In this document: piece by piece, positions 34,993-60,680 of the stretch
Position numbering within the stretch: position 1 is the first letter of the stretch
How the letters are laid out: every line of letters begins with the position of its first letter
Source of the DNA: Tetrahymena thermophila SB210
Lineage: Eukaryota; Ciliophora; Oligohymenophorea; Hymenostomatida; Tetrahymenidae
NCBI RefSeq assembly: GCF_000189635.1
Contig: NW_002476405.1
Location: 248,001-312,000 of the forward strand
Length of the DNA stretch: 64,000 bases
Direction: 5' to 3'
The notes under the pieces: model-generated
The model's database searches: none
Seen by the model: the letters and a program-made list of their open reading frames with translations, nothing else
What the model was told of the DNA's origin: nothing
Translations under genes and position numbers: made by a program

Positions 34993-37695
34993 TCATTTAG
35001 AAATTAATTATTAGATATTTTGCTTCATTGAATTATAGTTTTGATTTTTATTTAGTTAAGACTTAACATAACTAATAGATTTTTTAGAGATGAGCACCCA
35101 TTTTGATTTCTATGAGCTATAATTTATCTCAAGGATGATAAGGATAAAGAGAGTCATAAAGGCATCCTTTGAGGCAAATTGAGAACAAAGCTACATGATA
35201 TTATTCTCATCTATTTAAGATAGATGCATTAATAAATGATGATCAAAATTCCATATTCCTTAAGAATTTACTAAATTCAATAAAACTTCTAACTTTGGCA
35301 AATAAGATTTGTTTTACATTAATCTTTTTTACTCAATTTAAACATTCTATTAATTTAGTATCTATGTTTTAATTGATGTATCTGATAGTTCAACTTTGGT
35401 TTATCCTTCTACATTTGAAATACCAGAAGATGGATACATGGTATTAAACCCTTTTGAGAGATATTAATTTAATTAGCAAGATTTCTAATCTTCTACAAAA
35501 GATTATTCTAATTCCTTATTAATGTTTTGAAGTCTATTATAGTTTTTATTTATACAACATTTATTATTATTAAGATATCTATTGATATCAATTTAATGTT
35601 GTTCTTCTACTTCTATTTCTTCTTCTTATTCTTCATCTTCATCTAATTCTAATTCGGATTCGGACTTTGATTCTTATTCTAGTTTTACAAATTCGCTATC
35701 AAAATAACAGTCAAACATTAAGTGAGGTTTAGGTGATGATAATTTTGAGTAATATTTCTCATCTTTCATATTTTAATGTATATGTTTGTGATTTATATTT
35801 TTGTATAAAATTCTCTATTCATCATTTATCTCTTCAATAAAGCATATCAAAGCTGTTTTTGAAGTTAGAAGTTAAAAATCAATTGCTTGCTAAATTAGTT
35901 AGCTACTCAATCTTTAATTTTAGATATTTTCATTTAAATATAATTACTTTCCTATCTTAAAAACTGATTCTTGAAGTTAGTGGTTGCTAGTAAAATTGTC
36001 TTGCATCTACAGTTCTATTTCTTTCAAAACATTTTGTTATTTATGAGAATCGTAATATTATATTTATATTTTTTTTTATTATTCTGTCAAGCTTTAAAAT
36101 TCTAAAAGAGGCTTGAAAAAGAAATGAATGTTTATTATTTCATCTTTAAAAACGCAAGGGAAATCTGTAGAAGAGGGGTACGTCGAGTCAAAAACAGTGT
36201 TATCATATGTTATTTTGAATTCATCAAAAGTAGGAGTTATACACAAAGACAGCATATTGATAATTACTTCAGACAAATCACAATTTTAATCTACTATTTT
36301 GGAAATACCTTTTCCAGCAATTGCACTCTCTTTTATTAAATACTGATCAGCTTTAAAGCCGAACCCAATTGAATGAACTCTGTTATATTTGTTATTTTTC
36401 TTAATTAATTCTATTACTTGCTCAGAAGAATCTACTTCACCATCAGTTAATAAGAAGATTTGTCTGTTATATCCTGAAATCCTTTTCATGATAAAAACAT
36501 TATGAAGAGGATTGTAAATTTCGGTTCCTCCCAAATCAGAATCATAATTATTTATTATTTAAACAGCTTTTTCTAAGCTCTCACTTGTGTATTTAGTTGA
36601 AAATGGGAACAATTTTTCAAATGAAGAACCAAAACTTATAACATTGAAGTAACTATCATTAGGGAGACTCTTTAGAAAGAGAATAATAGCTTCGCATGCC
36701 CTGCGAATAGGCTAACCCCTCATAGATCCACTTCTATCCAAAATAAATATGAACTCGCTTCTAGAAGAATTTAAATGATCTATTAGTTCTTGATTTAATT
36801 TTTGTTAATATTCATCACTAAAAATATCATCTCCATTGCTTATTGCAGCTCTAATAGTATCATCTATTTCCTAGGTAATCTCTTCATTAAAATTTGGAAT
36901 GAATGAAATCATAGCTGAGTGACATACGGGAAGAATAGCACTCTTTACAGAGTCTTCATTAAAAATCTTACTTTAGCCGAAAATGACTTGAGGATTGAAC
37001 ATTCCATCGAATGAATAAATGAGTTAATAGTAGTCTTTACCCTTTTGTAAAAGAGCTTGGCTGATATTAAATTTCGCTGATTAATCATCAAGCATTATTT
37101 TTTCTGCCTAATAGCCTTTAGATTCAGCATAAAGGATTTTTCCTGTACAAGATAAATCAAGTGTCAATAAATTCTTACCTAATTTAGCTGAAACTTCATC
37201 GTTGCAGTATATTATAGGGATATGAGCAATAAAATATTTGTTTATGAAAGAATTCAATTATTAAGAAAAGATAATGTTTACTTCTACTTATTGACTAGGA
37301 GGTAAATTGCCTAGCTGAATTTTACAATAGTCCTAATCTTTAAAAGAGTTTATTTCAGCATATGTAACAAAGTTGCCTTGACTCTTGTTTTCTTAGTATT
37401 CTTACTCTGCTTAATCTTTATCCTTTATAATACCTTTAATAGTTTTTTTATTGTAATTAGCTTCGAATGACTGCAAGCTGATTCCATCCTAAATGGGGAA
37501 ATAGTATATGGTTTCTCAGTATTCGCTGTCTGACTAGCTAACAAAGGTCTAAGATAAACTAATTCTGAGGATATTATTTATTATGTTACCTTAATATTGA
37601 ATGCTCTAAAGAGTTGCTGGAGTTTAAAAAGATTTTTTAGTTGTTGAAGAGACAAACTAAAAATCTAAAGATCTAAGCTGATAAGGTTTAAACAT
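34993..37695 (-). pseudogene. VIT + VWA domain protein (copy B) with one in-frame TGA
   Basis: Paralogue of the gene at 23433-26582. The frame is open over 901 codons except for a single TGA at codon 60 (37518-37516), where copy A has TCA (Ser) in the context 'SEYSETIYYFP'. The TGA sits inside the VIT domain, upstream of the VWA domain. The VWA metal site is otherwise conserved (D320-x-S-x-S, 'LTDGEVDS'), but the residue after the DxSxS-M motif is Arg instead of Ser. Copy B lacks the polyproline linker and has an acidic segment ('EEEIEVEEQH') instead; the C-terminal Trp block is conserved. With TGA as stop it is a pseudogene or makes a truncated protein. The intact remainder suggests a recent mutation, readthrough or a sequence error. 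Confidence 0.8.
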
Positions 37696-44718: not shown

Positions 44719-45432
44719 GCTTTATTCCCTATTAAAATTAAGTTTATTTTTAAAATTATCACATTTCAAATCTAATAAATATATAATAAAACAAGCAAGT
44801 ACCTTTAATTTCTTGTCAAATTTAACTTTAATGTGCAAAAATAAAATAATAAAAATAATTTTTTTATTGAGAAGTATTTATTAATTATTAAATTGTGTTT
44901 AATTCTTCAATATTCAAATACTTTAGTTAATAAACTATTTTTTATTTATAAAATGCAATTTATATTATATAATTATTTAAAAATTAGAGTACCTAACAAA
45001 TTATGATAGAAAAAATAAAAATTATCAAATATTTTTCCTCAAAATTAATTTATTTTATCATTTTTTTTAGTGATAAAATAAATAAATAAATAAATAAATA
45101 AATAAATAGTAATATCAAAAACTCGTAAAGCTTTACATTTTTGTAAATAATAAATTGATGTTATGAGTATTCTTGAAAACTTATTTTACATGAAAAATAG
45201 AAATATCTAATAATTTAAATAATAAGTTTCAAGAAAAAATTAGAACATAAAATTTTGGTTTTATTAACCTTGCTATTTTCTAAAAATTTTAAATTTAATA
45301 ATTTTTGTATAATATAATTTTTAAAATAAAAATATCGAAAAAAATTTGTTAAAAACATAAAAAAATGCATTATTTATTAATTTTAAATATTAATAATTTT
45401 TAAAAATCCATAAAATAATTTGTCTAAATAAT
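44719..45432. other. Convergent intergenic region with AAAT microsatellite
   Basis: A+T-rich 3' flank; an (AAAT)n tract of about eight units lies at 45075-45108. The right part (from about 45308) belongs to the direct repeat shared with 51.55 kb. Confidence 0.55.
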
Positions 45433-47640
45433 TCATATTGCAATTAATTTCTTAATTAATCTTTTTGCTTTTAAAATTTAGTTCATAATTTTCCATATTT
45501 TCCTTGCTGATTCGCTGGAAAGTGTATTATTCCTATTATTAATTTATATAATTTATTTCAAATGAATGAGATACACAATTTAAAATAAATAAAAACAATT
45601 TTTTAAAAATTAAAATAAAAGAACTAATTTAAAAGAATTAAAAACAGAAATTCACTAAATAATCAAATAATAGCATATATTTAATGTTATTTTTTTTTAG
45701 CTAACCTTATAAAAGAGAAAAATTTAAAAAAACAAAAATATTTATACCATAGATCAAGTTCCAAAAATCTCAGTTATTTACACTATCTTATTGCAGAACT
45801 CAAGCTTATTGCTCCTTCATCATCGATAAAATTAACTCTTTTAAAATTGTATTGATAAAAATATATTTAAAAGAAAAAAGTATAAATTAAATTATAAAAG
45901 TTAAAATTCTAAAAATAATTATTTAAAATTAGAAAAATATTAAAGTAAACAGTTATTTTATCTCGAAAATATTTTATTTATTTTTAAAAGCACACACTTT
46001 AAAATAAAAGTAAAATATTTTACGAAATATTGAGTGTTAAATCTATAAGTTTACTGAAGTTTGGTAAAGTAGAGCTTATACCCATTGCACCATTTGATCT
46101 AATAAATGTGTTCCTTTTAATATTTTTAAGATAAAATTAATAAAATCCCAAAGTTAAATAAAATATTAAAGTCTTATTAAAACAATTAAATTATTATATT
46201 TAACCCAAGAATAAGTTTCAAACTTGATATATTAGGGATGTTTAATAGACCTGAGCATAGTCCTAATAAGCCATTATCTTGAATTTAATTATTGCTTTTC
46301 ATTTAGTTTTATTTAAATTTAAATATACATTTAATTTCTAAAAGATTCATGAATGTTTAATATTTTACTTGAGTTTAATTGTTAGATTCTTAAGATTAGT
46401 ACATTTTGCTAAATTTTAACCTAGGCTAATGGCTCCATCTTCATAAATTTAAGTGGAACTTATTCCCATATTAAAATATTAATGATTTAGATTTATTAAT
46501 AAAAGAGAGAAAATTGAATTAAAAGATAAAATAATTTTTAAATTAAAAAAATTATAAAAATTTTAATTAAAAAAAAGAAATATTATAAAATTAATTTTTT
46601 AGAAATTATTGATCAATAAATTTTTTACTAAAATTTGAGTGCCAAAGTTTCGAGATTAGCGAATTTATATAAATGAGAACTCAAGTCTTTTAAACCATCA
46701 TCATAAATAGGATTTGAGCTTTAAAAAAAATTTTAGTAAATTTCTAAATTTCACAGTTTAAATGAAATGATACTTTAAAAATAGACTAAAATTTGCTTTT
46801 AAATAGCTTTGCCAATTTTATAAATAAAAAATTCAATTAAAGCAAAAAGCAATGTACCTAAAATCTAGTGCCATTTTCTAGATTTTAGCACAGTTTGTTA
46901 AATCAGAGACTAATTTTGAAGCACTTTCTGATTTCATTTAAACCAAACTTTTAATATTTTAAAAATAAATTAACAAAAAAATATGTAAAAAGAAGTATAA
47001 ATATTCTAAATAACTTGTCATTAAAATATTCGTTTAACATGAAATATATTTAACATAATAAAACTAAAAAAAGGAATATTAATAACAAAGTTACTTTAGA
47101 AAAGCAAATAATTTATTATTATTTATTTATTAACTATAAGTTAAAGTTAAACAAAAAAATTATTTTACTAGTGTTCAAGTGTCAAATTTTAGAGATTAGA
47201 GCACTATGCTAAAGCAGAACCTAAGCTTGATAGACCCTCTTCATCTATTTAATTGCGGCTATTTAGTATAATTATTGGTTAAAATTAGCAAAAGCATTAT
47301 AGTGAATTTATACCTAATAGAAATATTAATACTAATATGAGAGGATAAATTAGAGTTGAGAAACTTTTTATTATATAAATAATAACTCTGTACTCCTTAC
47401 TTGACAAAATAATTAATTACATTTTCTAAAGATTTGAATTATTCTGTTAATTAAATCATTTTTTTCAGAAAAACTCAATTTTTATTTTTAAATAAACTCA
47501 AGTTGAAAGAAAATTAAGCTAAAATCATAATTAATAATCATTTGATTGGTTAACTATTTTAAAAAATTAATATGCTGAAATAACTTTTAGATTAAGCCAC
47601 ATAAAAATAGAAAGAAATTCAAAATAAAAAATTAAATTTA
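45308..47640. repeat. Direct repeat unit U, copy 1 (~2.3 kb)
   Basis: Near-identical to 51551-53850 in the same orientation, offset about 6241 bases over long stretches. It carries LRR gene R1. Shorter and more diverged versions occur at about 54050-55700 and 57850-58920. Confidence 0.85.
45433..47459 (-). CDS. LRR gene R1, 9 exons, apparently intact
   Basis: Minus-strand exons: 47459-47314, 47258-47169, 46947-46858, 46718-46629, 46458-46369, 46294-46205, 46113-46024, 45837-45748, 45532-45433. They join in frame to 291 residues. All introns are phase 2 and the seven internal exons are exactly 90 nt, each one LRR ('LGSALAQCSNLQNLTLEH', 'LGQNLAKCTNLKNLTIKL'). Exon 1 encodes 'MIQLTEQFKSLENVINYF', homologous to the leader of gene P, with an in-frame TGA two codons before the ATG. 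The last exon ends with the basic family motif ('LKAKRLIKKLIAI') and TGA. Probably a protein-interaction molecule; ligand unknown. It lies just downstream of, and parallel to, the first Cys-rich gene. Confidence 0.8.
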
Positions 47641-48313
47641 TTAAATATAAAATAATGATATAATAGAAAAGCAAAAGTATAGCCAAACGCCTAATTAAAA
47701 TTTAGTGGCTTGGGTATAAATGAGTTTAATTTGATGACATACTATTTTTCATTTAATGCATCAAAATATATCAGAAAATTAAATTATATATATATACATA
47801 ATCTTTAATTAAATTATGTATATTTCTAAATGTTAATAAAATAATCGCTAATAAATGGCTATGACTATTTTTTAAAATTGCAAATTGTTATATTTAAAAT
47901 ATTATATTAAACTTAAAATCTCATTGCGTGTAATGAAATGGAGTATTAAATTTTGTTAAAATACTAAATTAACTTTTTAAAGAAATAAGCTAAATAATTT
48001 ATTTTTATTCGAAAAAAAATGGCCTATTTTAAAGCCAGTGAATTTATCTAGTATTGAACTTAATAAGTTTAACTGCAAAATTTAAAAACTAAATATTAAA
48101 TATTTTTATTTATTGAATATGAAACTAATTTATTATTTAAATTAATTTTATTATTGATTTAAGTAATATTTTAAAAAATAGAAAGAAAATGCATACAAAT
48201 AAGAATAAAATAAGATACATTCATTGTTAACTTAAAAAATAAGGTAATATTTTTATTATTATTTTTTTAAATTAATAAAATTTTATGCATTAAAATATCT
48301 TATGATAAATATT

Positions 48314-48664
48314 TCAAAATATCATAGACATTAAAGAAAATGCAAATACAAAAGCAAATTATAAGAATGTTGAGGAGTTAAGGCAATTTATAACTACTTA
48401 AAGATTGTTTTAAATTGCTGCGTTTTTAGAACTGCATTTTGGTAAACAATTTTTGATCTATTGGGGAGAAAATTCTTGAGAATCTGTACATTTTTAAACG
48501 CAGGTTTACACTCTTTATGCTTCATTTAGACAATCTAAATTATCCTATTTGCATGGTACTTATAAATCATATTAATTTCTTTCCAAACAATTAAGAAAAT
48601 TAACTGCTTCCGAGGCTGCACAAAAAGCAATTAGAGCAAGGAAAGTAAATGTGAGGAATTTCAT
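48314..48664 (-). CDS. Small secreted 8-Cys protein with GPI-anchor-like tail, copy 1
   Basis: Intact 117-codon frame (116 residues). It has a signal peptide ('MKFLTFTFLALIAFCA'), a mature domain of ~75 residues with eight cysteines, including two C-x3-C pairs ('CVQKC' and 'CLPKC') 13 residues apart, and a C-terminal hydrophobic stretch ('FLQFAFVFAFSLMSMIF') directly before TGA. The small Asn-Ser-Ser-Thr patch before that stretch would suit a GPI-attachment site. The layout therefore fits a GPI-anchored surface protein; this is inferred. Two paralogues lie at 56556-56915 and 59492-59854. I do not recognise the family. The C-x3-C...C-x3-C pattern also occurs in helical-hairpin peptides, but that is only a resemblance. 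Confidence 0.8.
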
Positions 48665-48757
48665 TTTTTGTTTATATTTGTATTAATCTTGGTTTTTTAT
48701 AAATATTTTGTTATATTTTTATTTATTTATTATACTCTTAGTTATTGTTTAAGCCTT

Positions 48758-48771
48758 TACTTTATAAAGTA
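48758..48771. promoter_or_regulatory. Conserved 14-nt palindrome upstream of Cys-rich gene
   Basis: A perfect palindrome TACTTTATAAAGTA lies ~95 bases upstream of the ATG of copy 1 and again at 59947-59960 upstream of copy 3; copy 2 has a diverged version. It includes a TATA-like core, so a promoter role is possible, but conservation may simply reflect recent duplication. Confidence 0.35.
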
Positions 48772-49509
48772 GGTATTTCATAAAGTTATACTATATAAGA
48801 AAAAAGCGATAGATATATGATTAAAATTGATTGATTAATTAAAAATAGTTATTATTATTATCAAAGTCTATATAAACTAATAAACTAGAACTAATGATAG
48901 ACTAAAAATAGAAAAATAGTTTGCTCTTAATTCATTTAATTATTAATATTACTAAATTTATTCATCAAAAATAATATAATAATGTTTAGCTCACCTATTT
49001 TTACATCTTTTTTTATAAATAATTCGTTTTTATAAAAAAGATAGTTTTGAAGCATATATTTATTATATTTTATCATTTTTAGATTAAATTATTAAAATTT
49101 TTAAAGATAAAGTTAATATTAATTTATGAGAATCAGTAAATTATAAATTTAACCTTTCTGTTAATAGAATAATGCCTCATATAATCTTATTTAATTATTT
49201 GTTACATTCATACATACATACATCTTTCAAAAAAATGACTTTTTCAAAGCAATAGAAAATTAATTTATTATATTAATTAAAAAATTTTTGGAAATTAAAA
49301 TATATTGATAATCATATATAAAAAAATGTAATCTTCATTAAATATATCTATGATATTAGTCAGTCTATTTATATCTTTACAAACAGTATTTACTGACTAC
49401 AATATTTGAATTTTATAAATTAATTAAAAAATCAAAGCGCTTTTAATTTCTGATAATTAATATTTAAAATTTTTTACCTCTCATAATTCTAGATTAAATC
49501 TTTTCAAAA

Positions 49510-50735
49510 AAAATTAAATAGCTTAAACTGTAATAAAAATAATATTTAAATTATTTTAAATTTTCCATTTCTTTCATTTACAAATAAAAACTCTACTTCA
49601 AAATTTTTTTAAAATATTTCAACTTATTTTAATTTTACAATATTTTATTTACATCTATCTATATTAATTCTAGAATAATTATTTTGTGAGAATTAAATGC
49701 ATATTTAGAAGAATAATAAATATTTATTTTATAAATTAAAATAAAATTTAAAAGAAATTAAAAAAATTTAAATTATAAGTTAAGAAAATTAAATATGAAA
49801 ATGTATGTGAGATTTTATAGTGTATTTTTAACGTGTGATAAATTCAATTAAAAAATTGATTAATTAAACTATTTAAAAAAACAATATATATTTTTTATTC
49901 TAAATTAATTGATTGATTAAAAACTAAATTAATTAATTAATTAAATATTTAAGTTGTAATATTTGTTTTGTTTTTTTATTTGATACACCTAATTATTTTT
50001 TTTTTTAAATCTATTCACGTTTAGATTTTATCATTATTATTTTATTTTTCATGTGCTTATAACTTTTAATTTTACAAAAATGATTTACTTTATTCTAAAC
50101 ATTTATTTTATTACCTTTGATTTTTTGTTTTTTTTTATTTTAAGCGATATTTGATTTTTTTGTTATTGTTTTGTGTTGCGATGTTTGTTATTTTTGAATA
50201 AATAATTTTTTTTATTTATTTTTTTTTGTATTGAAATGTTTGTTATTCTTGAATAAATAAATAAATAAATTATTTCTTAGAAATTGAATTGAAATATATT
50301 TTTCAAAAGATATTTATCAAAAGATATTTATCAAAAGATATTTACCAAAAGATATTTTTCAAAAGATATTTCTGTTTTTGTAATTCTTGTTGTTGTTGTT
50401 TTAGTTGAAATGTTTGTTATTTTGAAAAAGATATTCATTAAAAGATATTTTTGTAAAGATATTAATTAAAAGATATTTTTGTAAAGATATTAATTAAAAG
50501 ATATTTTTGTTATGATATTTTTAAAAGGATATTTTTGTTATGATATTTTTAAAAGGATATTTTTGTTATGATATTTTTAAAAAGATATTTATTTTATGTT
50601 TTATTTATTAAAGATATTTATTTTATGTTTTATTTATTAAAGATAGCAAAATATTAAATGTCAAAAAAATAAGCAAATAAATAAAAATATCAAAAGAAAA
50701 TAATTCACAATCCAAAACAAATAAACTGTTTTTAC
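49510..50735. other. Non-coding spacer with simple repeats
   Basis: A+T-rich spacer between duplicated unit W1 and the LRR fragment. A 17-mer TTGAAATGTTTGTTATT-like word recurs near 50180, 50233 and 50405 among minisatellite blocks. Confidence 0.5.
50300..50645. repeat. GATATTT-based minisatellite cluster
   Basis: Block 1 (about 50303-50372): five units of a 14-15-mer containing CAAAAGATATTT. Block 2 (about 50424-50645): pairs and triples of several related units that all contain GATATTT, e.g. two copies of a ~26-mer, three of a ~27-mer and two of a ~29-mer. There are no conserved spacers, so this is not a CRISPR array. Confidence 0.85.
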
Positions 50736-51176
50736 TGAAGATCAAGTGTCAAATTTGAGAGATTAATGCAAGTTGCTAAACCAGAACCTAAGCGTGATGC
50801 ACCTATCACACCAATTTCATTGTTACTTTTTAAATATTGAAGAAAAAATATATCATTAAATAGTTAATTAGAAGGAAAAAATGAAGAAAAAATATGAAAT
50901 AATAAGATTAATTAATTAATAATAAAAGCAAAATTTAAAAATAAAATGATAAGTTAAATTAGCAAAGAAAGAAAGAACAAAAAAAAAGCAAGCACAATAA
51001 AAAGAAAAAGAAAAAGATCTTTATTGTTTTTAATTAGTTTTTATAATTAAAAATATCACAATCCAAAACAAATAAACTGTTTTTACTCAAGCAAAAGTGT
51101 CAAATTTGAGAGATTAATGCAATTTGCTAAAGCAGATCCTAAGCCTTATGCACCAATCGCACCAATTTAATTGCGA
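50736..51176 (-). pseudogene. Orphan pair of LRR exons (fragment X)
   Basis: Two 90-nt LRR exons at 51176-51087 and 50825-50736, each phase 2 with GTAAAA donors and AAAAAG acceptors ('LGSALANCINLSNLTLLL', 'LGSGLATCINLSNLTLDL'). Their flanks share the 'CAAAACAAATAAACTG' word with gene Q, so they derive from a Q-type gene. No first exon or terminal basic exon is found nearby, so this is a fragment. Confidence 0.7.
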
Positions 51177-51550
51177 CTTTTTAAATATTTAAGAAAAAAT
51201 ATATCATTACATAGTTAATTAGAAGGAAAAAATAAAGAAAAAATATGAATTAATAAGATTAATCAATAATAAAAGCAAAAGTTGAAAATAAAATGATGAG
51301 CTAAATTAACAAAGCAAGAACAATTAAAAGAAAAAGAAAAAAGAGCTTATTGTTTAAAATTAGTAAAATAAATTTAATATAAATCACTTAAAAGTTTACT
51401 TGCAATACAAAAATCAAATAGAAGTACAAAATGGCTTGTAATATAATTTTATATGATGATAATCAATTAATTAATTAATTTAGTAACAACAATTATAAGA
51501 GCTTCGATCAAAAGAATTTTTAGGCTTTTTCAAACAAGATTTCTTACTCT

Positions 51551-53850
51551 TTAGAATATAATTTTTAAAATAAAAATATAGAAAAAAATAAGTTAAAAAC
51601 ATAAAAAAATGCATTATTTATTAATTTTAAATATTTATAATTTTAAAAAATCCATAAAATAATTTGTCTAAATAATTCATATTGCAATTAATTTCTTAAT
51701 TAATCTTTTTGCTTTTAAAATTTAGTTCATAATTTTCCATATTTTCCTTGTTGATTCGCTGGAAAGTGTATTATTCCTATTATTAATTTATATAATTTAT
51801 TTCAAATGAATGAGATACACAATTTAAAATAAATAAAAACAATTTTTTAAAAATTAAAATAAAAGAACTAATTTAAAAGAAATAAAAACAGAAATTCACT
51901 AAATAATCAAATAATAGCATATATTTAATGTTATTTTTTTTAGTTAACCTTTTAGAAGAGAAAAATTTAAAAACAAACAAATATATACCCTAGATCAAGT
52001 TCCAAAAATCTCAGTTATTTACACTATCTTATTGCAGAACTCAAGCTTATTGCTCCTTCATCATCAATATAATTAACTATTTTAAAATTGTATTGATAAA
52101 AATATATTTAAAAGAAAAAATTATAAAGTAAATTATAAATATTAAAATTCTAAAAATAATTATTTAAAATTAGAAAAATATTAAAGTAAACAGTTATTTT
52201 ATCTCAAAAATATTTTATTTATCTTTAAAAGCAAACACTTTAAAATAAAAGTTAAATATTTTACGAAATATTGAGTGTTAAATCTATAAGTTTACTGAAG
52301 TTTGGTAAAGTAGAGCTTATACCCATTGCACCATTTGATCTAATAAAGGTGTTCCTTTTAATATTTTTAAGATAAAATTAATAAAATCCCAAAGTTAAAT
52401 AAAATATTAAAGTCTTATTAAAACAATTAAATTATTATATTTAACCCAAGAATAAGTTTCGAACTTGATATATTAGGGATGTTTAATAGACCTGAGCATA
52501 GTCCTAATAAGCCATTATCTTGAATTTAATTATTGCTTTTCATTTAGTTTTATTTAAATTTCAATATACATTTAATTTCTAAAAGATTCATGAATGTTTA
52601 ATATTTTACTTGAGTTTAATTGTTAGATTCTTAAGATTAGTACATTTTGCTAAATTTTAACCTAGGCTAATGGCTCCATATTCATAAATTTAAGTGGAAC
52701 TTATTCCCATATTAAAATATTAATGATTTAGATTTATTAATAAAAGAGAGAAAATTGAATTAAAAGATAAAATAATTTTTAAATTAAAAAAATTAGAAAA
52801 ATTTTAATTAAAAAAAAGAAATATTATAAAATTAATTTTTTAGAAATTATTGATCAATAAATTTTTTACTAAAATTTGAGTGCCAAAGTTTCGAGATTAG
52901 AGAATTTATATAAATGAGAACTCAAGTCTTTTAAACCATCATCATAAATAGGATTTGAGCTTTAAAAAAAATTTTAGTAAATTTCTAAATTTCACAGTTT
53001 AAATGAAATGAAACTTTAAAAATAGACTAAAATTTGCTTTTAAATAGCTTTGCCAATTTTATAAATAAAAAATTCAATTAAAGCAAAAAGCAATGTACCT
53101 AAAATCTAGTGCCATTTATTTTCTAGATTTTAGCACAGTTTGTTAAATCAGAGACTAATTTTGAAGCACTTTCTGAATTCATTTAAACCAAACTTTTAAT
53201 ATTTTTAAAATAAATTTACAAAAAAACATGTAAAAAGAAGAATAAATATTTTAAAATAAATAACTTGTCATTAAAATATTCGTTTAACATGAAATATATT
53301 TAACATAATAAAACTAAAAAAAGAAATATTAACAAAAAAATTACATTAGAAAAGCAAATAATTTATTATTATTTATTTATTAACTAAAAGTTAAATTTAA
53401 ACAAAAAAATTATTTTACTAGTGTTCAAGTGTCAAATTTTAGAGATTAGAGCACTATGCTAAAGCAGAACCTAAGCTTGATAAACCCTTTTCATCTATTT
53501 AATTGCGGCTATTTAGTATAATTATTGGTTAAAATTAGCAAAAGCATAATAGTGAATAAAACTTTTTATTAAAAAATAAATAACTCTATACTCCTTACTT
53601 GATAAAATAATTAATTACATTTTCTAAAGTTTTGAATTATTTTGTTTATTAAATCATTTTTTTTAGAAAAACTCAAATTTTATTTGTAAATAAACACAAG
53701 TTGAAAGAAAATTATGCTAAATGTAATTATATAATCATTTGATTGGTTCGCTATTTTAAAAAATTAATATGCTGAAATAACTTTTAAATTAAGCCACATA
53801 TAAATAGAAAGAAATTCAAAATAAAAAATTAAATTTATTAAATATAAAAT
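51551..53850. repeat. Direct repeat unit U, copy 2
   Basis: Near-identical to 45308-47640. Small indels and a ~57-bp deletion near exon 1 distinguish it. Confidence 0.85.
51677..53657 (-). pseudogene. LRR gene copy R2, decayed
   Basis: Exon-by-exon copy of R1 (53508-53419, 53192-53099, 52959-52870, 52699-52610, 52535-52446, 52354-52265, 52078-51989, 51776-51677). Three lesions are visible. A deletion of roughly 57 bp removes the 3' part and splice donor of exon 1. A 4-base insertion makes the 53192-53099 exon 94 nt. A change next to 52078 replaces the AG acceptor of the last LRR exon, so the nearest AG shifts the frame. The start ATG (53657) survives. A translated product is unlikely to be full length. 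Confidence 0.75.
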
Positions 53851-54112
53851 AATGATTTAATAAAAGTAAAAGTATGACCAAATGCCCAATTAAAATATAG
53901 TGGTTTGGGTATTAATGAGTTTAAAATTAAATAAAAATATATCTGAAATTATTAGTTCTAAGCCTTTTTTTTTAATTCACTTTTATTTATGATATATTTT
54001 GGTTTAACATTTTTGAGTATTAGCAAAAATATTTAAAAAAATATGCTAAAGACAATAATAAAAAAATGCATTATTTACTATTCTCAAATATTTTTTATTT
54101 TTAAAAATCCAT

Positions 54113-55490
54113 TAAATAATTTGTTTAAATAATTAATATAGAAATTAATCTCTTTGTTTTTAAAATTTAGTTCATAATTTTCCTTTCTGATTCGCTGGTG
54201 AGTGAATTATTCCTATTTTTAATTTATATGTTTTAATTTAAATGAATGAGATACTCAATTTAAAATAAATAAAAAATATTTTAAAAAATGAATATAAAAG
54301 AGCTAATTTAAAAAGAATTAAAAACAGAAATTTATTAAATAATGGCATGATAGGATATAATTTAATGTTATTTTTTTTAGTTAACCTTATAAAAGAGATT
54401 ATTTCAATAAACAAAAAAATATATATCTATATACCATAGATAAAGCTCCAAAAATCTGAGTTAGTTACACTATCTTATAGCAGAACTGAAGCCTATTGCT
54501 CCTTCAGCACCAATAGAATTAACTCTTTTAAAATTTTTTGATAAAAAAACATTTAAAAGAGAAAGCATTTATTTTATCAAACAGTAAAAAAAAATTATTT
54601 ATTTATTTAAAATTTAATTTTTTAAAGAAATTATTAATTATAAATAATATTTTTACGAAAATTCAAGTGCCAAAGTTTCAAGATTAGTGAATTTGTGTAA
54701 ATGAGAACTCAAGTCTTTTAAATTATCATCATAAATTTGGTTTGAGCTTTAGATATAATTTTAGTAAATTTAATAGTTTAAATAAAATTAAACTTTAAAA
54801 TAGATTAAAATTTATATTATATATATAATAGCTTTACCAATTTTGCAAATATTTTATTAAAACTAAAACATCTACCTGAAATATAGTATCATGTTCTAGA
54901 TCTTAGCACTGTTTGTTAAATCAGAAACTAATTTTGAAGCACTTTCTGAACTCATTTAAACCAAACTTTTAATATTTTAAAAATAAATTAACATAAAATT
55001 ATCATTAAAAGAAGAAAAATATTAAAAATATTAAAAATAAATTACTAATGATTAAAATATTTATTTAATATGAAATATATTTAACATAACAATACTAAAA
55101 GAAAATTTTTTAAAAAAACTACATCTGAAAAGCAAATAACTTATTATTCTTTATTAACTAAAATTCAAAGTTAAAAATTATTTTACTAGTGTTCAAGTGC
55201 CAAGTTTTAAAGATTAGAGCACTTTGCTATAGCAGAACCTAAGTTTGATAAACCCTCCTCATCTATTTAATTGTGATTATTTAGTATAGTTATTTGTTAA
55301 AATTAGTAAAAACATAATATTGAGTGCTTTATCTATTTATTTTTATCTAATAGAAATATCAAGACTAATATGAGAGCATAAAGAAGAGTTGAGAAACTTT
55401 TTAATATAAAAATAATAACTCTATACTTTTTACATGATAAAATAATTAATTACATTTTCTAGAGATTTAAATTATTCTGTTTATAAAATA
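54113..55490 (-). pseudogene. LRR gene copy R3, decayed and shortened
   Basis: LRR exons at 55276-55187, 54965-54876, 54746-54657 and 54524-54435, plus a terminal exon from 54212 with the basic motif ('LKTKRLISIL'). All surviving exons are 90 nt and phase 2. Three LRR exons present in R1 are missing. The ATG position of exon 1 reads TTT, the exon-1 donor GGTATA has become GATAAA, and the acceptor of the 55276 exon reads TAA instead of TAG. The terminal-exon TGA is also lost, so the frame runs on into unit U2. Confidence 0.7.
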
Positions 55491-55539
55491 AATTTTTTCA
55501 ACAAAACTCAATTATTATTTTTAAACAAAATGAAGTTGA

Positions 55540-55945
55540 AAGAAAATTAAGAGTAAATAGTAATAAAATAATCATTTAATTAGTTCGCAATTATAAAAAT
55601 TAATATGCTGAAATAACTTTTAAATTAAGACACATAAAAATAGAAAGAAATTTAGAATAAGAAATTAAATTTTGTTTATATAAAATAATGAGAATAATTG
55701 AAGAGCAAAAATAATACTTTTTTATTATTTGATAACTGCTATAAAATAGAAATAGTTAATTCAATGCATTCTTTTGTATTAAGAATTGAAAGTTACTTGA
55801 TACTTAAATTTTATGCAACTATATTCATATCCTGCTGTATTTTTTCAAGCTCATCTTGCTACTAAAGCTCACTTTTTTTTTAAATTATTTTATTTTGTAA
55901 ATTTACAGATACACAGTGTTTAATATTCTATTCATATTAGTTAGG
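55540..55945 (-). other. Conserved open frame upstream of R3
   Basis: A minus-strand frame of ~125 codons containing 'ELQQQDELEKIQQDMNIV' and 'LSIKQLSILNTKE' is conserved at about 58760-59110. The two copies differ by indels of 3 and 12 bases, which keep the frame. There is no clear ATG. It may be an unrecognised exon or the remnant of one. Confidence 0.3.
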
Positions 55946-55994
55946 CTTTTTCGGAAATTAACCAATCGATTTTAATTATATTTTGATGAAATAC

Positions 55995-57700
55995 TTACTT
56001 ACTATTTTTGATTTAATACATCAAAATATATCAGAAAATAAATTATATATAATAATCTTTAATTAAATTATGTATATTTCTAAATGTTAATAAAATCATC
56101 GCTAATAAATTGTGATGACTATTTTTTAAAATTGCAAAGTGTTATATTTAAAATATTATATTAAACTTAAAATATCTTTGTGTTTAATGAAATGGAGTAT
56201 TAAATTTTGTGAAAATACTAAATTAACTTTTAAAGAAAAAAGATAAATAATTTATTTTTATTCAAAAAAAAAAAAGCCTATTTTAAAGCTAGTGAATTTA
56301 TCTAGTATTGAACTTAATAAGTTTAACTGCAAAATTTAAAAACTAAATATTAAATATTTTTATTTATTGATTATGAAATTAATTAATTATTTAAATTAGT
56401 TTTATTATTGATTGAGTAATATTTTAAAAAATAGAAAGAAAATGCATACAAATAGGAATAAAATGAGATACATTAATTGTTAACTAAAAAAATAAGGTAA
56501 TTATTATTTTAAATAAATAACATTTTATGCATTAAAATATCTTATGATAAATATTTCAAAATATCATAGACATTAAAGAAAATGCAAATACAAAAGCAAA
56601 TTATAAGAATGTTGAGCTAAGGCAATTTATAATTACTTAAAGATTGTTTTAAATTGCTGCGTTTTTAGAACTGCATTTTGGTAAACAATTTTTGATCTAT
56701 TTGGCAGAAAATACTTGAGAATTTGAACATTCTTAAGCACATTTTTTCACTCTTTATTATTCATTTAGACAATCTTAATCTTGCTTTTAGCATGGTACTT
56801 ATTATTCTTATTTTTTTCTATCCAAACAATTAAGAAAATCAACTTCTTCCTAGTTTTGAGCTTAGACTGCACAAAAAGCAATAAGAGCAAGGAAAGTAAA
56901 AGTGAGGAATTTCATTTTTTGTTTATATTTGTTTTAATCTTGGTATTTATAAATATTTTGTTATATTTTTATTTATTTATTATACTTTTAGTTATCATTT
57001 AAGCCTTTCCTTTATAAAGTATGTATTTCATAAGTTTATACTATATAAGAAAAAGCTATAGATATATAATTAAAATTGATTCATTAATTAAAATTAGTTA
57101 TTATTATTATTAAGTGTTTTTAAACTAGAACTAATGATAGACTAAAAATAGAAAAATAGTTTGCTCTTAATTCATTTAATATTACTATTAATAAATTTAT
57201 ACATCAAAAATAATATATTAATGTTTAGCTAACCTATTTTTACTTATTTTTTTATAAATAATTCTTTTTTATCAAAATGATAGTTTTGAAGCATATATTT
57301 ATTTTAATTTTATCATTTTTAGATTAAATTATTAAAATTTTTAAAGATAAAGTCAAATATAAATTTATGAAAATCATTAAATTATAAATTTAACCTTTCT
57401 GTAAATAGAATAATGCCTCATATAATCTTATTTCATTATTTGTTTCATTCATACATACATCTTTTCAAAAAAATGACTTTTTCAAAGCAATATTAGTTCA
57501 AATTAAAATTACTTTTAAACATATAAAAAAAAAATTTAATCTTCATTAAATATATCTATAGTAATAGTAAGTCTATTTATATCTTTACAGACAGTATTTA
57601 CTGACTACTATAATTTGAATTTTTTAAATAATTTAAAAATCAAAGTACTTTTAATTTCTGATAATTACTATTTTAAATTTTTTAGCTCTCAAAATACTTC
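55995..57700. repeat. Duplicated unit W, copy 2
   Basis: Second copy of the unit carrying a Cys-rich gene; see 47740-49510. Confidence 0.8.
56556..56915 (-). CDS. Small secreted 8-Cys protein with GPI-anchor-like tail, copy 2
   Basis: Intact 120-codon frame (119 residues). Signal peptide 'MKFLTFTFLALIAFCAVQA', then an eight-Cys domain with C-x3-C pairs ('CAQEC', 'CLPKC') 13 residues apart, then the same hydrophobic C-terminus as copy 1. It differs from copy 1 mostly in the mature domain, e.g. 'DFLNCLDRKKQEQQVPCQ', and by a three-residue insertion after the signal peptide, while signal and tail are nearly identical. All eight cysteines are kept. It runs in the same direction as the LRR copies on both sides. 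Confidence 0.8.
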
Positions 57701-57904
57701 TTGATTAAAAATATAAAAAATCTAATTTTATATTTTTATTCATAATATCTTAAATATATATATTAAGTTATATTTTTATTAAAAAATTTAATATTGCTAA
57801 AAATTTTTGAGCGATTAATGTCATAATTTATTTATTTAAAATTCAATTTTTTAATTTTATGTTAATTTTTTATGGAAATTATTGATTATCTATAATATTT
57901 TTAC

Positions 57905-58750
57905 GAAAATTCGAGTGCCAAAGTTTCGAGATTAGTGAATTTGTATAAATTAGAACTCAAGTCTTTTAAACCATCATCATAAATTGAATTGGATTTGAGC
58001 TTTAAATATAATTTTAGTAAATTTAATAGTTTAAATAAAATTAAACTTTAAAATAGATTAAAATTTATATTATTTATAATATCTTTACCAATTTTGTAAA
58101 TATTTTATTAAAACAGACTAAAACATTTACCTGAAATCTAGTATCATGTTCTAGATCTTAGCACAGTTTGTTAAATCAGAAACTAATTTTGAAACACTTT
58201 CTGAACTCATTTAAACCTAACTTTTAATATTTTAAAAATAAATTAACATAAAAATATCATTAACAGAAGAAAAATATTAAAAAATAAATTACTAATGATT
58301 AAAATATTTATTTAATATGAAATATATTTAACATAATAAAACTAAAATAAAATATTTTTAAAAAAAACTACATCAGAAAAGCAAATAACTTATTATTCTT
58401 TATTAACTAAAATTCAAAGTTAAAAATTATTTTACTAGTGTCCAAGTGCAAAATTTTAAAGATAAGAGCACTTTGCTATAGCAGAACCTAAGTTTGATAA
58501 ACCCTCCTCATCTATTTAATTGTGATTATTTAGTATAGTTATTGGTTAAAATTAGTAAAAACATAATATTGAGTGCGTTATCTATTTATTTTTATCTAAT
58601 AGAAATATCAAGACTAATATAAGACGTAAAGATGAGCTGAGAAACTTTTTAATATAAAAATAATAACTCTATACTTTTTACATGATTAAATAATTAATTA
58701 CATTTTCTAGAGATTTAAATTATTCTGTTTATAAAATAAATTTTTTCAAC
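57905..58750 (-). pseudogene. LRR gene copy R4, fragment
   Basis: LRR exons at 58525-58436, 58220-58131 and 57999-57905 plus an exon-1 remnant up to ~58750. The 57999-57905 exon has five extra bases and is out of frame. The exon-1 donor and the acceptor of the 58525 exon carry the same changes as R3, so R3 and R4 share a decayed ancestor. No terminal exon is present. Confidence 0.7.
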
Positions 58751-59194
58751 AAAACTCAATTATTATTTTTAAACAAAATTAAGTTGAAAGAAAATTAAGA
58801 GTAAATAGTAATAAAATAATCATTTGATTGGTTCGTTAATTTGCTGAAATAACTTTTAAATTAAGCTACATAAAAATAGAAAGAAATTTAGAATAAGAAA
58901 TTTAATTTTATTTATGTAAAATAATGAGAATAATTGAAGAGCAAAAATAATACTTTTTTATTATTTAATAGCTATAAAATAGAAATAGTTAATTTAATGG
59001 GTTCTTTTGTATTAAGAATTGAAAGTTACTTGATACTTAAATTTTATACAATTATATTCATATCCTACTATATTTTTTCAAGCTCATCTTGCTACTACAG
59101 CTCACTATTTTTTTAAAAATTATTTTATTTTGTAATTTTTTTTAACTTATTTGATATTCGGTATAGTAAAAAATTTTAAATTATCATTTATTCG

Positions 59195-60680
59195 GTATCT
59201 ATTTTAAAGATAGTGAATTTATCAAGTATTGAACTTAATTAGTTTAACTGCAAAATTTAAAAACTAAATATTAAATATTTTTATTTATTGAATATGAAAT
59301 TAATTAATTATTTAAATTAGTTTTATTATTGATTGAGTAATATTTTAAAAAATAGAAAGAAAATGCATACAAATAGGAATAAAATGAGATACATTCATTG
59401 TTAACTTAAAAAATAAGGTAATATTTTTATTATTATATATTATTTTAAATTAATAACATTTTATGCATTAAAATATCTTATGATAAATATTTCAAAATAT
59501 CATAGACATTAAAGAAAATGCAAATACAAAAGCAAATTATAAGAATGTTGAGCTAAGGCAATTTATAACTACTTAAAGATTGTTTTAAATTTCTGCGTTT
59601 GTAGAACTGCATTTTTGTAAACAATTTTTGGTCTATTGGGCAGAAAATACTTGAGAATTTGAACATCCTAAAGTGCAGGTTTTCATTCTTTATTATTCAT
59701 TTAGACAATCTAAACTATTATCCTGTTTACATGGTACTTATAAATATTATTATTTTCTATCCAAACAATTAAGAAAATCAATTTCTTCCTAGTTTTGAGC
59801 TTAGACTGCACAAAAAGCAATAAGAGCAAGGAAAGTAAATGAGAGGAATTTCATTTTTTGTTTATATTTGTTTTTATCTTGGTTTTTATAAATATTTTGT
59901 TATATTTTTATTTATTTATTATACTCTTATTTATCCTTTAAGCCTTTACTTTATAAAGTAGGTATTTCATATGTTTATACTATATAAGAAAAAAGTTATA
60001 GATATATAATTAAAATAGATTCATTAATTAAAAATAGTTATTATTGTTATTAAGTCTATATAAACTAGAACTAATGATAGACTTAAAAATAGAAAAATTG
60101 TTTGCTCTAAATTCATTTAATTTTTACTATTACTAAATTTATTCATCAAAAATAATATATTAATGTTTAGCTAACCTATTTTTACATCTTTTTTATAAAT
60201 AATTCGTTTTTATAAAAAAAATAGTTTTGAAGCATAAATTTATTTTTATTTTATCATTTTTAGATTAAATTATTAAAAATTTTTAAAGATAAAGTCAAAT
60301 ATAAATTTATGATAATCAATAAATTATAAATTTAACATTTCTGTTTATAGAATAATGGTTCACATAATCTTATTTAATTAATTTTTTATTTATTTCATTC
60401 ACATATACATACATCTTTTCAAAAAAATGACTTTTTCAAAGCAATAGAAATTAATTTATTATATAAGTTCAAAAACTTTTGGAAAAATTAAAATATACTT
60501 ATAATCATATAAAAAAAAATTTAATCTTCATTAAATATTAGTCAGTCTATTTGTATCTTTACAGATAGTATGACTAATATTATTTGAATTTTTTAAATTT
60601 TAAAAAATCAAAGTACTTTTAATTTCTGATAATTACTATTTTAACTCTTTTAGCTCTCAAAATACTTCTAGATTAAAAAT
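59195..60680. repeat. Duplicated unit W, copy 3
   Basis: Third copy of the unit carrying a Cys-rich gene; see 47740-49510. Confidence 0.8.
59492..59854 (-). CDS. Small secreted 8-Cys protein with GPI-anchor-like tail, copy 3
   Basis: Intact 121-codon frame (120 residues). Signal peptide 'MKFLSFTFLALIAFCAVQA', eight cysteines at aligned positions, C-x3-C pairs 'CTLGC' and 'CLQKC' 13 residues apart, and the shared hydrophobic C-terminus. Closest to copy 2 after the signal peptide ('QNQEE' shared), but with its own changes, e.g. 'RMKTC' and 'SSTNAEIQ'. The frame is free of TGA despite substitutions and 3-base indels relative to the other copies, which argues that it is under selection or very young. 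Confidence 0.8.

Follow-up and report, generated by a model that had tools for sequence, protein, structure and literature searches.

An eight-cysteine protein family of about 100 members in Tetrahymena thermophila, probably small surface proteins of the GPI type

Three small minus-strand genes in a 64,000-nucleotide stretch of the Tetrahymena thermophila SB210 genome (hereafter the window) were compared with one another, with their flanks and with related loci throughout the genome. They belong to a tandem array within a family of roughly 100 genes. From the cysteine pattern, the composition of both ends and the census described below, we consider it fairly probable that these genes encode small GPI-type surface proteins that are built on a conserved cysteine scaffold and act in the manner of the Ser immobilization antigens. 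The genes, the duplicated blocks that contain them and the neighboring leucine-rich-repeat (LRR) segment are as follows.

48314..48664, minus strand: copy A, an eight-cysteine (8-Cys) protein of 116 aa with a signal-like start, a mature domain and a hydrophobic tail
56556..56915, minus strand: copy B, an 8-Cys protein of 119 aa
59492..59854, minus strand: copy C, an 8-Cys protein of 120 aa with one additional residue ahead of the third cysteine
C140:313225-313584: copy D, the fourth copy, at about window position 65225, 1.2 kb past the window end
48024..49498: duplicated block of copy A with its flanks
56278..57709: duplicated block of copy B with its flanks
59199..60677: duplicated block of copy C with its flanks
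C140:312934-314437: duplicated block of copy D, past the window end
45308..47729, minus strand: LRR segment, 94% identical to 51552-53924

The four blocks were about 87-89% identical across 1.5-1.8 kb. The frames of copies A, B, and C comprised 117, 120, and 121 codons including the stop, and they were open solely when TAA and TAG were read as glutamine (10, 14, and 11 such in-frame codons, respectively), each being closed by TGA. All three copies carried eight mature cysteines in register, as a single block per protein, together with one extra cysteine in the signal stretch; both C-x3-C pairs had a spacing of exactly three, and the C-terminal 20 residues were identical. In these respects the sequence-only reading that preceded this work, which had described three minus-strand frames of 117-121 codons with eight aligned cysteines, C-x3-C spacing at two places and a hydrophobic C-terminus closed by TGA, was borne out in full. 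Against copy B, identity was 77% for copy A and 82% for copy C. The cysteines of copy B lie at residues 30, 42, 49, 59, 63, 77, 81, and 98 and its tail spans residues 100-119; its signal is inferred to cover approximately residues 1-20. Relative to the other copies, copy A had a 12-base gap that deletes four residues close to where cleavage is expected. An ATG at 48781, 5' of copy A, was rejected as the start, the conserved start being at 48664.

The census showed that the same reading had put the scale far too low in speaking of a three-copy family. Seven single-protein queries were searched against the 101-Mb assembly (445 contigs) with E up to 0.01 (up to 0.001 for one query), and the merged matches gave 98 gene-like places spread over 23 contigs; of these places, 90 measured at least 270 bases. 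An eighth query added five places on five further contigs; the one of these that was read has all eight cysteines. The family therefore totals at least 103 gene-like places on 28 contigs, some of them mere fragments, and all of these counts are lower bounds. With some hundred occurrences in the genome, the 8-Cys layout is not a product of chance. We read 67 distinct proteins with a start and four without one. In 62 of these 71 sequences, containing 66 domains, the cysteines followed the signature C-x(7-13)-C-x(5-10)-C-x9-C-x(3-5)-C-x(10-16)-C-x(3,4)-C-x(14-23)-C. The spacing between C3 and C4 was 9 in every one of the 66 domains, though 8-11 was allowed, and that between C7 and C8 was 16 in 55 domains; C4 and C5 were separated by three residues in 57 domains, and C6 and C7 by three residues in 32 and by four in the remaining 34. 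Nine sequences fell outside the signature: C5 and C6 were missing from three and C1 from one, the gaps were wider in one, and the remaining four were partial, broken or without C1 and C8. The family tree was weakly supported.

Most members (65/67) had a single domain, and the other two were multi-domain proteins with three (305 aa) and five (491 aa) domains. The latter (C246:79728-81200, L044) is Met/Ser-rich and holds its five 8-Cys domains within one open frame. At C205:132655-133293 (L067) there is a multi-domain member broken by TGA, a near kin of the intact three-domain neighbor. Long linkers were seen at two places: in the C127 array, where charged linkers precede the tail, and at C206:302300-308800 (L074-L077), where four near-identical members in alternating orientation carry Pro/Lys/Glu-rich linkers and an 8-Cys domain that is almost invariant among the four. 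Another member (C177:151948-152331, L052) stops roughly 860 bases short of a contig terminus, GGGGTTGGGGTGG, of telomere-like sequence (GGGGTT). A telomerase fragment encoded in the assembly agreed with the solved T. thermophila telomerase chain 2r4g_A at 101 of 102 aligned residues, and the DNA is very probably macronuclear.

The ends of the proteins were scored in 63 members; of the 67 read, those of the C206 array (four) were left out, as the sequence read stops before their tail. At the N-terminus, residue 2 was Lys or Arg in 61 of the 63 members, and residues 4-18 were hydrophobic in the same number. At the C-terminus, the final 15 residues were hydrophobic in 60 members and free of charge in 55; two of the three non-hydrophobic ends had early TGA stops and the third was cut at the edge of the sequence read. 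By composition, this is the layout of a putative endoplasmic reticulum (ER) signal followed by a putative GPI signal. The tail might instead be an ordinary transmembrane anchor, or the domain might be released as a free secreted peptide of a signaling, antimicrobial or pheromone-like kind, and the Euplotes pheromones, which are small, helical, disulfide-rich and secreted ciliate proteins, offer a parallel for the second case; to our knowledge, they have no C-terminal anchor tail. Charge did occur within the final 15 residues of eight of the 63 members, including two with an early TGA, one cut at the sequence edge and one frame-broken copy. However, most tails stop inside the hydrophobic stretch without any cytosolic residues, and a similar hydrophobic tail is also present in the three- and five-domain proteins and in the long-linker C127 members. 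Hydrophobic tails of this kind suit a GPI signal, and we regard a membrane-spanning anchor or a free peptide as unlikely. As for the GPI machinery, Gaa1 was not found by a profile search of the genome in which the controls gave no match either. A single C13-peptidase exon was compared, and its match to legumain was better than that to GPI transamidase.

Comparison with known families began with Pfam, where a scan of 23 members gave no significant family match; to this extent the earlier impression that no named family has this layout held. The arrangement C-x3-C ... C-x3-C with 10-16 residues between the pairs and the C-x9-C spacing that is invariant in the 8-Cys domains are shared with two groups of the mitochondrial intermembrane space, the twin CX3C and CX9C proteins (small Tim, CHCH), for which a helical hairpin is expected. 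Among the 23 members, however, zf-Tim10_DDP (small Tim) was absent from the Pfam matches at E up to 0.1, the CX9C profile reached one member at a non-significant E of 0.034, and the matches to UPF0203 and DUF842 were weak and insignificant; the matches to CHCHD chains in PDB were likewise weak and insignificant (CHCHD1, E = 0.44). Unlike the small Tim and CHCH proteins, the 8-Cys members start with a signal-like stretch and end in a hydrophobic tail. Literature searches yielded no account of the 8-Cys domain.

Close parallels are the cysteine-rich, GPI-anchored coats of ciliates. The surface antigens of Paramecium and Ichthyophthirius belong to this class and are much larger than the 8-Cys proteins. 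In T. thermophila itself the Ser antigens (SerH, SerL, SerJ) share with the 8-Cys family cysteine richness, a tail of the GPI type (putative in the 8-Cys family), tandem arrays and high divergence, as a 2014 survey describes them (PMC4136848). According to the survey, 216 Ser candidates were obtained, 55% of which were unclassified, with a cysteine rule of six Cys within 120 aa and a first gap of at least 6; Ser proteins consist of repetitive blocks of 6, 8 or 10 Cys with C-Xlong-C-Xshort-C patterns, and SerH has eight per block (PMC4136848). The survey accepted a GPI attachment signal when it was highly probable by FragAnchor; the 8-Cys tails were judged by composition. All 67 members tested followed the survey's cysteine rule, so part of the family probably sits among its unclassified candidates, and this qualifies the impression that no named family has the layout. 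The members might simply be unclassified, one-block versions of the Ser immobilization antigens, already within the 216. The species, the general layout and the tandem arrays are the same; besides the shared cysteine rule, one C-Xlong-C-Xshort-C unit was present in 64 of the 67 members; more than half of the survey's candidates lack a class; and the two multi-domain members have eight Cys per block, as SerH is described there. On the other hand, the predominance of single domains, with gaps of 7-13/5-10/9/3-5/10-16/3-4/14-23, differs from the repetitive blocks of the known Ser proteins as the survey presents them, and four long/short units in a row occurred in just one of the 67 members, this criterion being our own interpretation of the block pattern. 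We hold such membership to be possible, though somewhat doubtful.

The pattern of cysteine loss among the members bears on the disulfides. C5 and C6 were jointly absent from one C180 member and two C123 members, and C1 and C8 were jointly absent from domains 2-3 of the C205 proteins, of which domain 1 retains both. Such joint loss suggests C5-C6 and C1-C8 bonds; with these, the twin C-x3-C spacing would give C4-C7, which leaves C2-C3. The co-loss argument involves few independent events, and one C116 member that is without C1 yet has C8 counts against a strict C1-C8 pair. AlphaFold2 (AF2) prediction for the mature part, made with the three window sequences, gave an all-helical domain, with a best model of pLDDT 76.6 and pTM 0.60; the other four models had pLDDT of 58-66, the full-length model was poor (pLDDT 52.7), and comparison of the mature model with 24 solved chains gave no fold match. 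Based on these features, the following course can be proposed. The chain would enter the ER and lose its signal by a cut at approximately residue 20, after which the domain would fold as a disulfide-braced helical hairpin. In this hairpin, C4-C7 and C5-C6 bonds would link two C-x3-C helices, while C1-C8 would close the ends and C2-C3 would form a small loop. The tail would be exchanged for a GPI anchor just after C8, and the 8-Cys domain would be displayed on the cell or ciliary surface, where the fixed scaffold could permit variation of the exposed residues. Arrays of such genes might supply alternative coats or recognition surfaces, as has been suggested for the larger Ser immobilization antigens. 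The interpretation offered by the sequence-only reading, surface antigens or secreted effectors, is partly supported: the signal-like start, the anchor-like tail and the cysteine-rich, fast-changing middle are consistent with it, and the scale attached to it was wrong.

The blocks sit among tandemly duplicated LRR segments. The LRR part at 46581-47679 was about 81% identical to 54604-55713 and to 57862-58949. A simple pattern picked up seven LRR exons of exactly 90 bp from 45.7 to 53.6 kb, all of them on one strand; such exons lay in the 45308-47729 segment and in its copy at 51.5-53.9 kb. With this pattern no 90-bp exon was detected beside copies B and C, whose neighbor segments are alike by DNA only. 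The copy at 51.5-53.9 kb has no adjoining 8-Cys gene. Arrays of 90-bp exons have been reported from thousands of young Tetrahymena LRR genes (PMC6564038).

Divergence among the four C140 copies was uneven. The signal differed by 4.5%, the mature part by 11.2% and the tail by 3.3%, and the 5' and 3' flanks by 8.4% and 4.4%; variable positions among the gap-free columns numbered 5/50, 51/238, 4/60, 110/754, and 24/278, respectively. By column count, the mature part was more variable than the flanks (p = 0.0015), than the 5' flank alone (p = 0.015) and than the signal plus tail (p = 0.002), while the signal plus tail did not differ significantly from the flanks (p = 0.17). By this count, and by the omega of signal and tail taken singly (below), constraint on the ends is not clear-cut. 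Gene conversion could also reduce end divergence in C140, because divergence in the 3' flank is low too.

Two codon models were applied. In the first, the mutation rates were derived from the flanks of the four copies. The non-synonymous rate relative to the flank rate was 1.49-fold in the mature part (p = 0.012), 0.27 in the signal (p = 0.017) and 0.36 in the tail (p = 0.032). The mature omega was 2.34 (p = 0.053 versus 1), and the values for the signal (0.25, p = 0.18) and the tail (0.59, p = 0.67) did not differ from 1. The second model made no use of the flanks and was run on four arrays; the p-values of both models are uncorrected. For C140 it gave an omega of 2.30 in the mature part (p = 0.025 versus 1) and of 0.70 in signal plus tail, a difference with p = 0.0004, and simple counting gave pN/pS of 2.32, 0.45, and 1.30 for the mature part, signal, and tail. 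The ordering was similar in C116 (mature 1.38, ends 0.30, p = 0.0001), where three copies were taken in and one divergent copy of four was left out, and in the seven copies of C195 (0.66 and 0.30, p = 0.02). In contrast, the three copies of C173 showed the opposite order (0.07 and 0.43, p = 0.017), and on these estimates this array is strictly conserved under strong purifying selection. Diversification of the C140 mature part is, in our view, supported but not settled, the statistics being modest, and by these omega values it is no family-wide rule. The sequence-only reading had named dN/dS near 1 together with frame-breaking alleles in other strains as one result that would count against it; what was found instead was a fast mature part beside slower ends, with no frame-breaking changes seen among the four copies, although the omega of the whole protein was 1.52 in the first model (not different from 1, p = 0.26) and 1.69 in the second.

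The same data bear on the idea that the genes are only passengers of duplicating LRR segments in neutral decay, their pattern being produced by drift and gene conversion. Their position among those segments agrees with this, as do the nonsignificant column count for signal plus tail and the members that are truncated or disrupted (in C195 near 30.9 kb, the second C123 copy, and C173:633353), which also resemble those of a birth-and-death family. However, as the earlier reading had remarked, the length changes between copies keep the frame: the four copies had three distinct coding indels (12, 3, and 3 bases), all multiples of three, whereas only 7 of the 36 distinct flank gaps had such lengths (Fisher p = 0.013). 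Moreover, all eight cysteines were invariant, versus 40 of 77 mature positions (p = 0.004). Together with the low non-synonymous rate in signal and tail and the purifying selection on C173, these results make neutral passage very improbable.

If the members are GPI-type surface proteins, they may even constitute a second coat system of Tetrahymena, separate from the Ser antigens. We advance this tentatively, as a conjecture less likely true than false: about 100 mini-antigens on one non-Pfam domain, a twin C-x3-C helical hairpin with four nested disulfides that occurs alone or repeated three to five times in a protein, under regimes ranging from strict conservation (C173) to diversification (C140). 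Such a system would mix fixed structural members with fast-changing recognition or decoy members. The family bears on why a free-living ciliate maintains extensive sets of surface proteins that can change; the Ser survey calls the purpose of its antigens unclear and expects isolate comparison to reveal any positive selection (PMC4136848). The C140 array is compact and single-exon and has alignable flanks, which makes it possible to tell selection acting on the mature part apart from the constraint that signal and anchor impose. Small single-domain proteins should also be simpler to express, fold and knock out than the multi-block Ser proteins. Elsewhere in the window, an open minus-strand frame (34993-37515) had PDB matches to PARP4 (E 2.5e-21) and to heavy chains of the inter-alpha-trypsin inhibitor.
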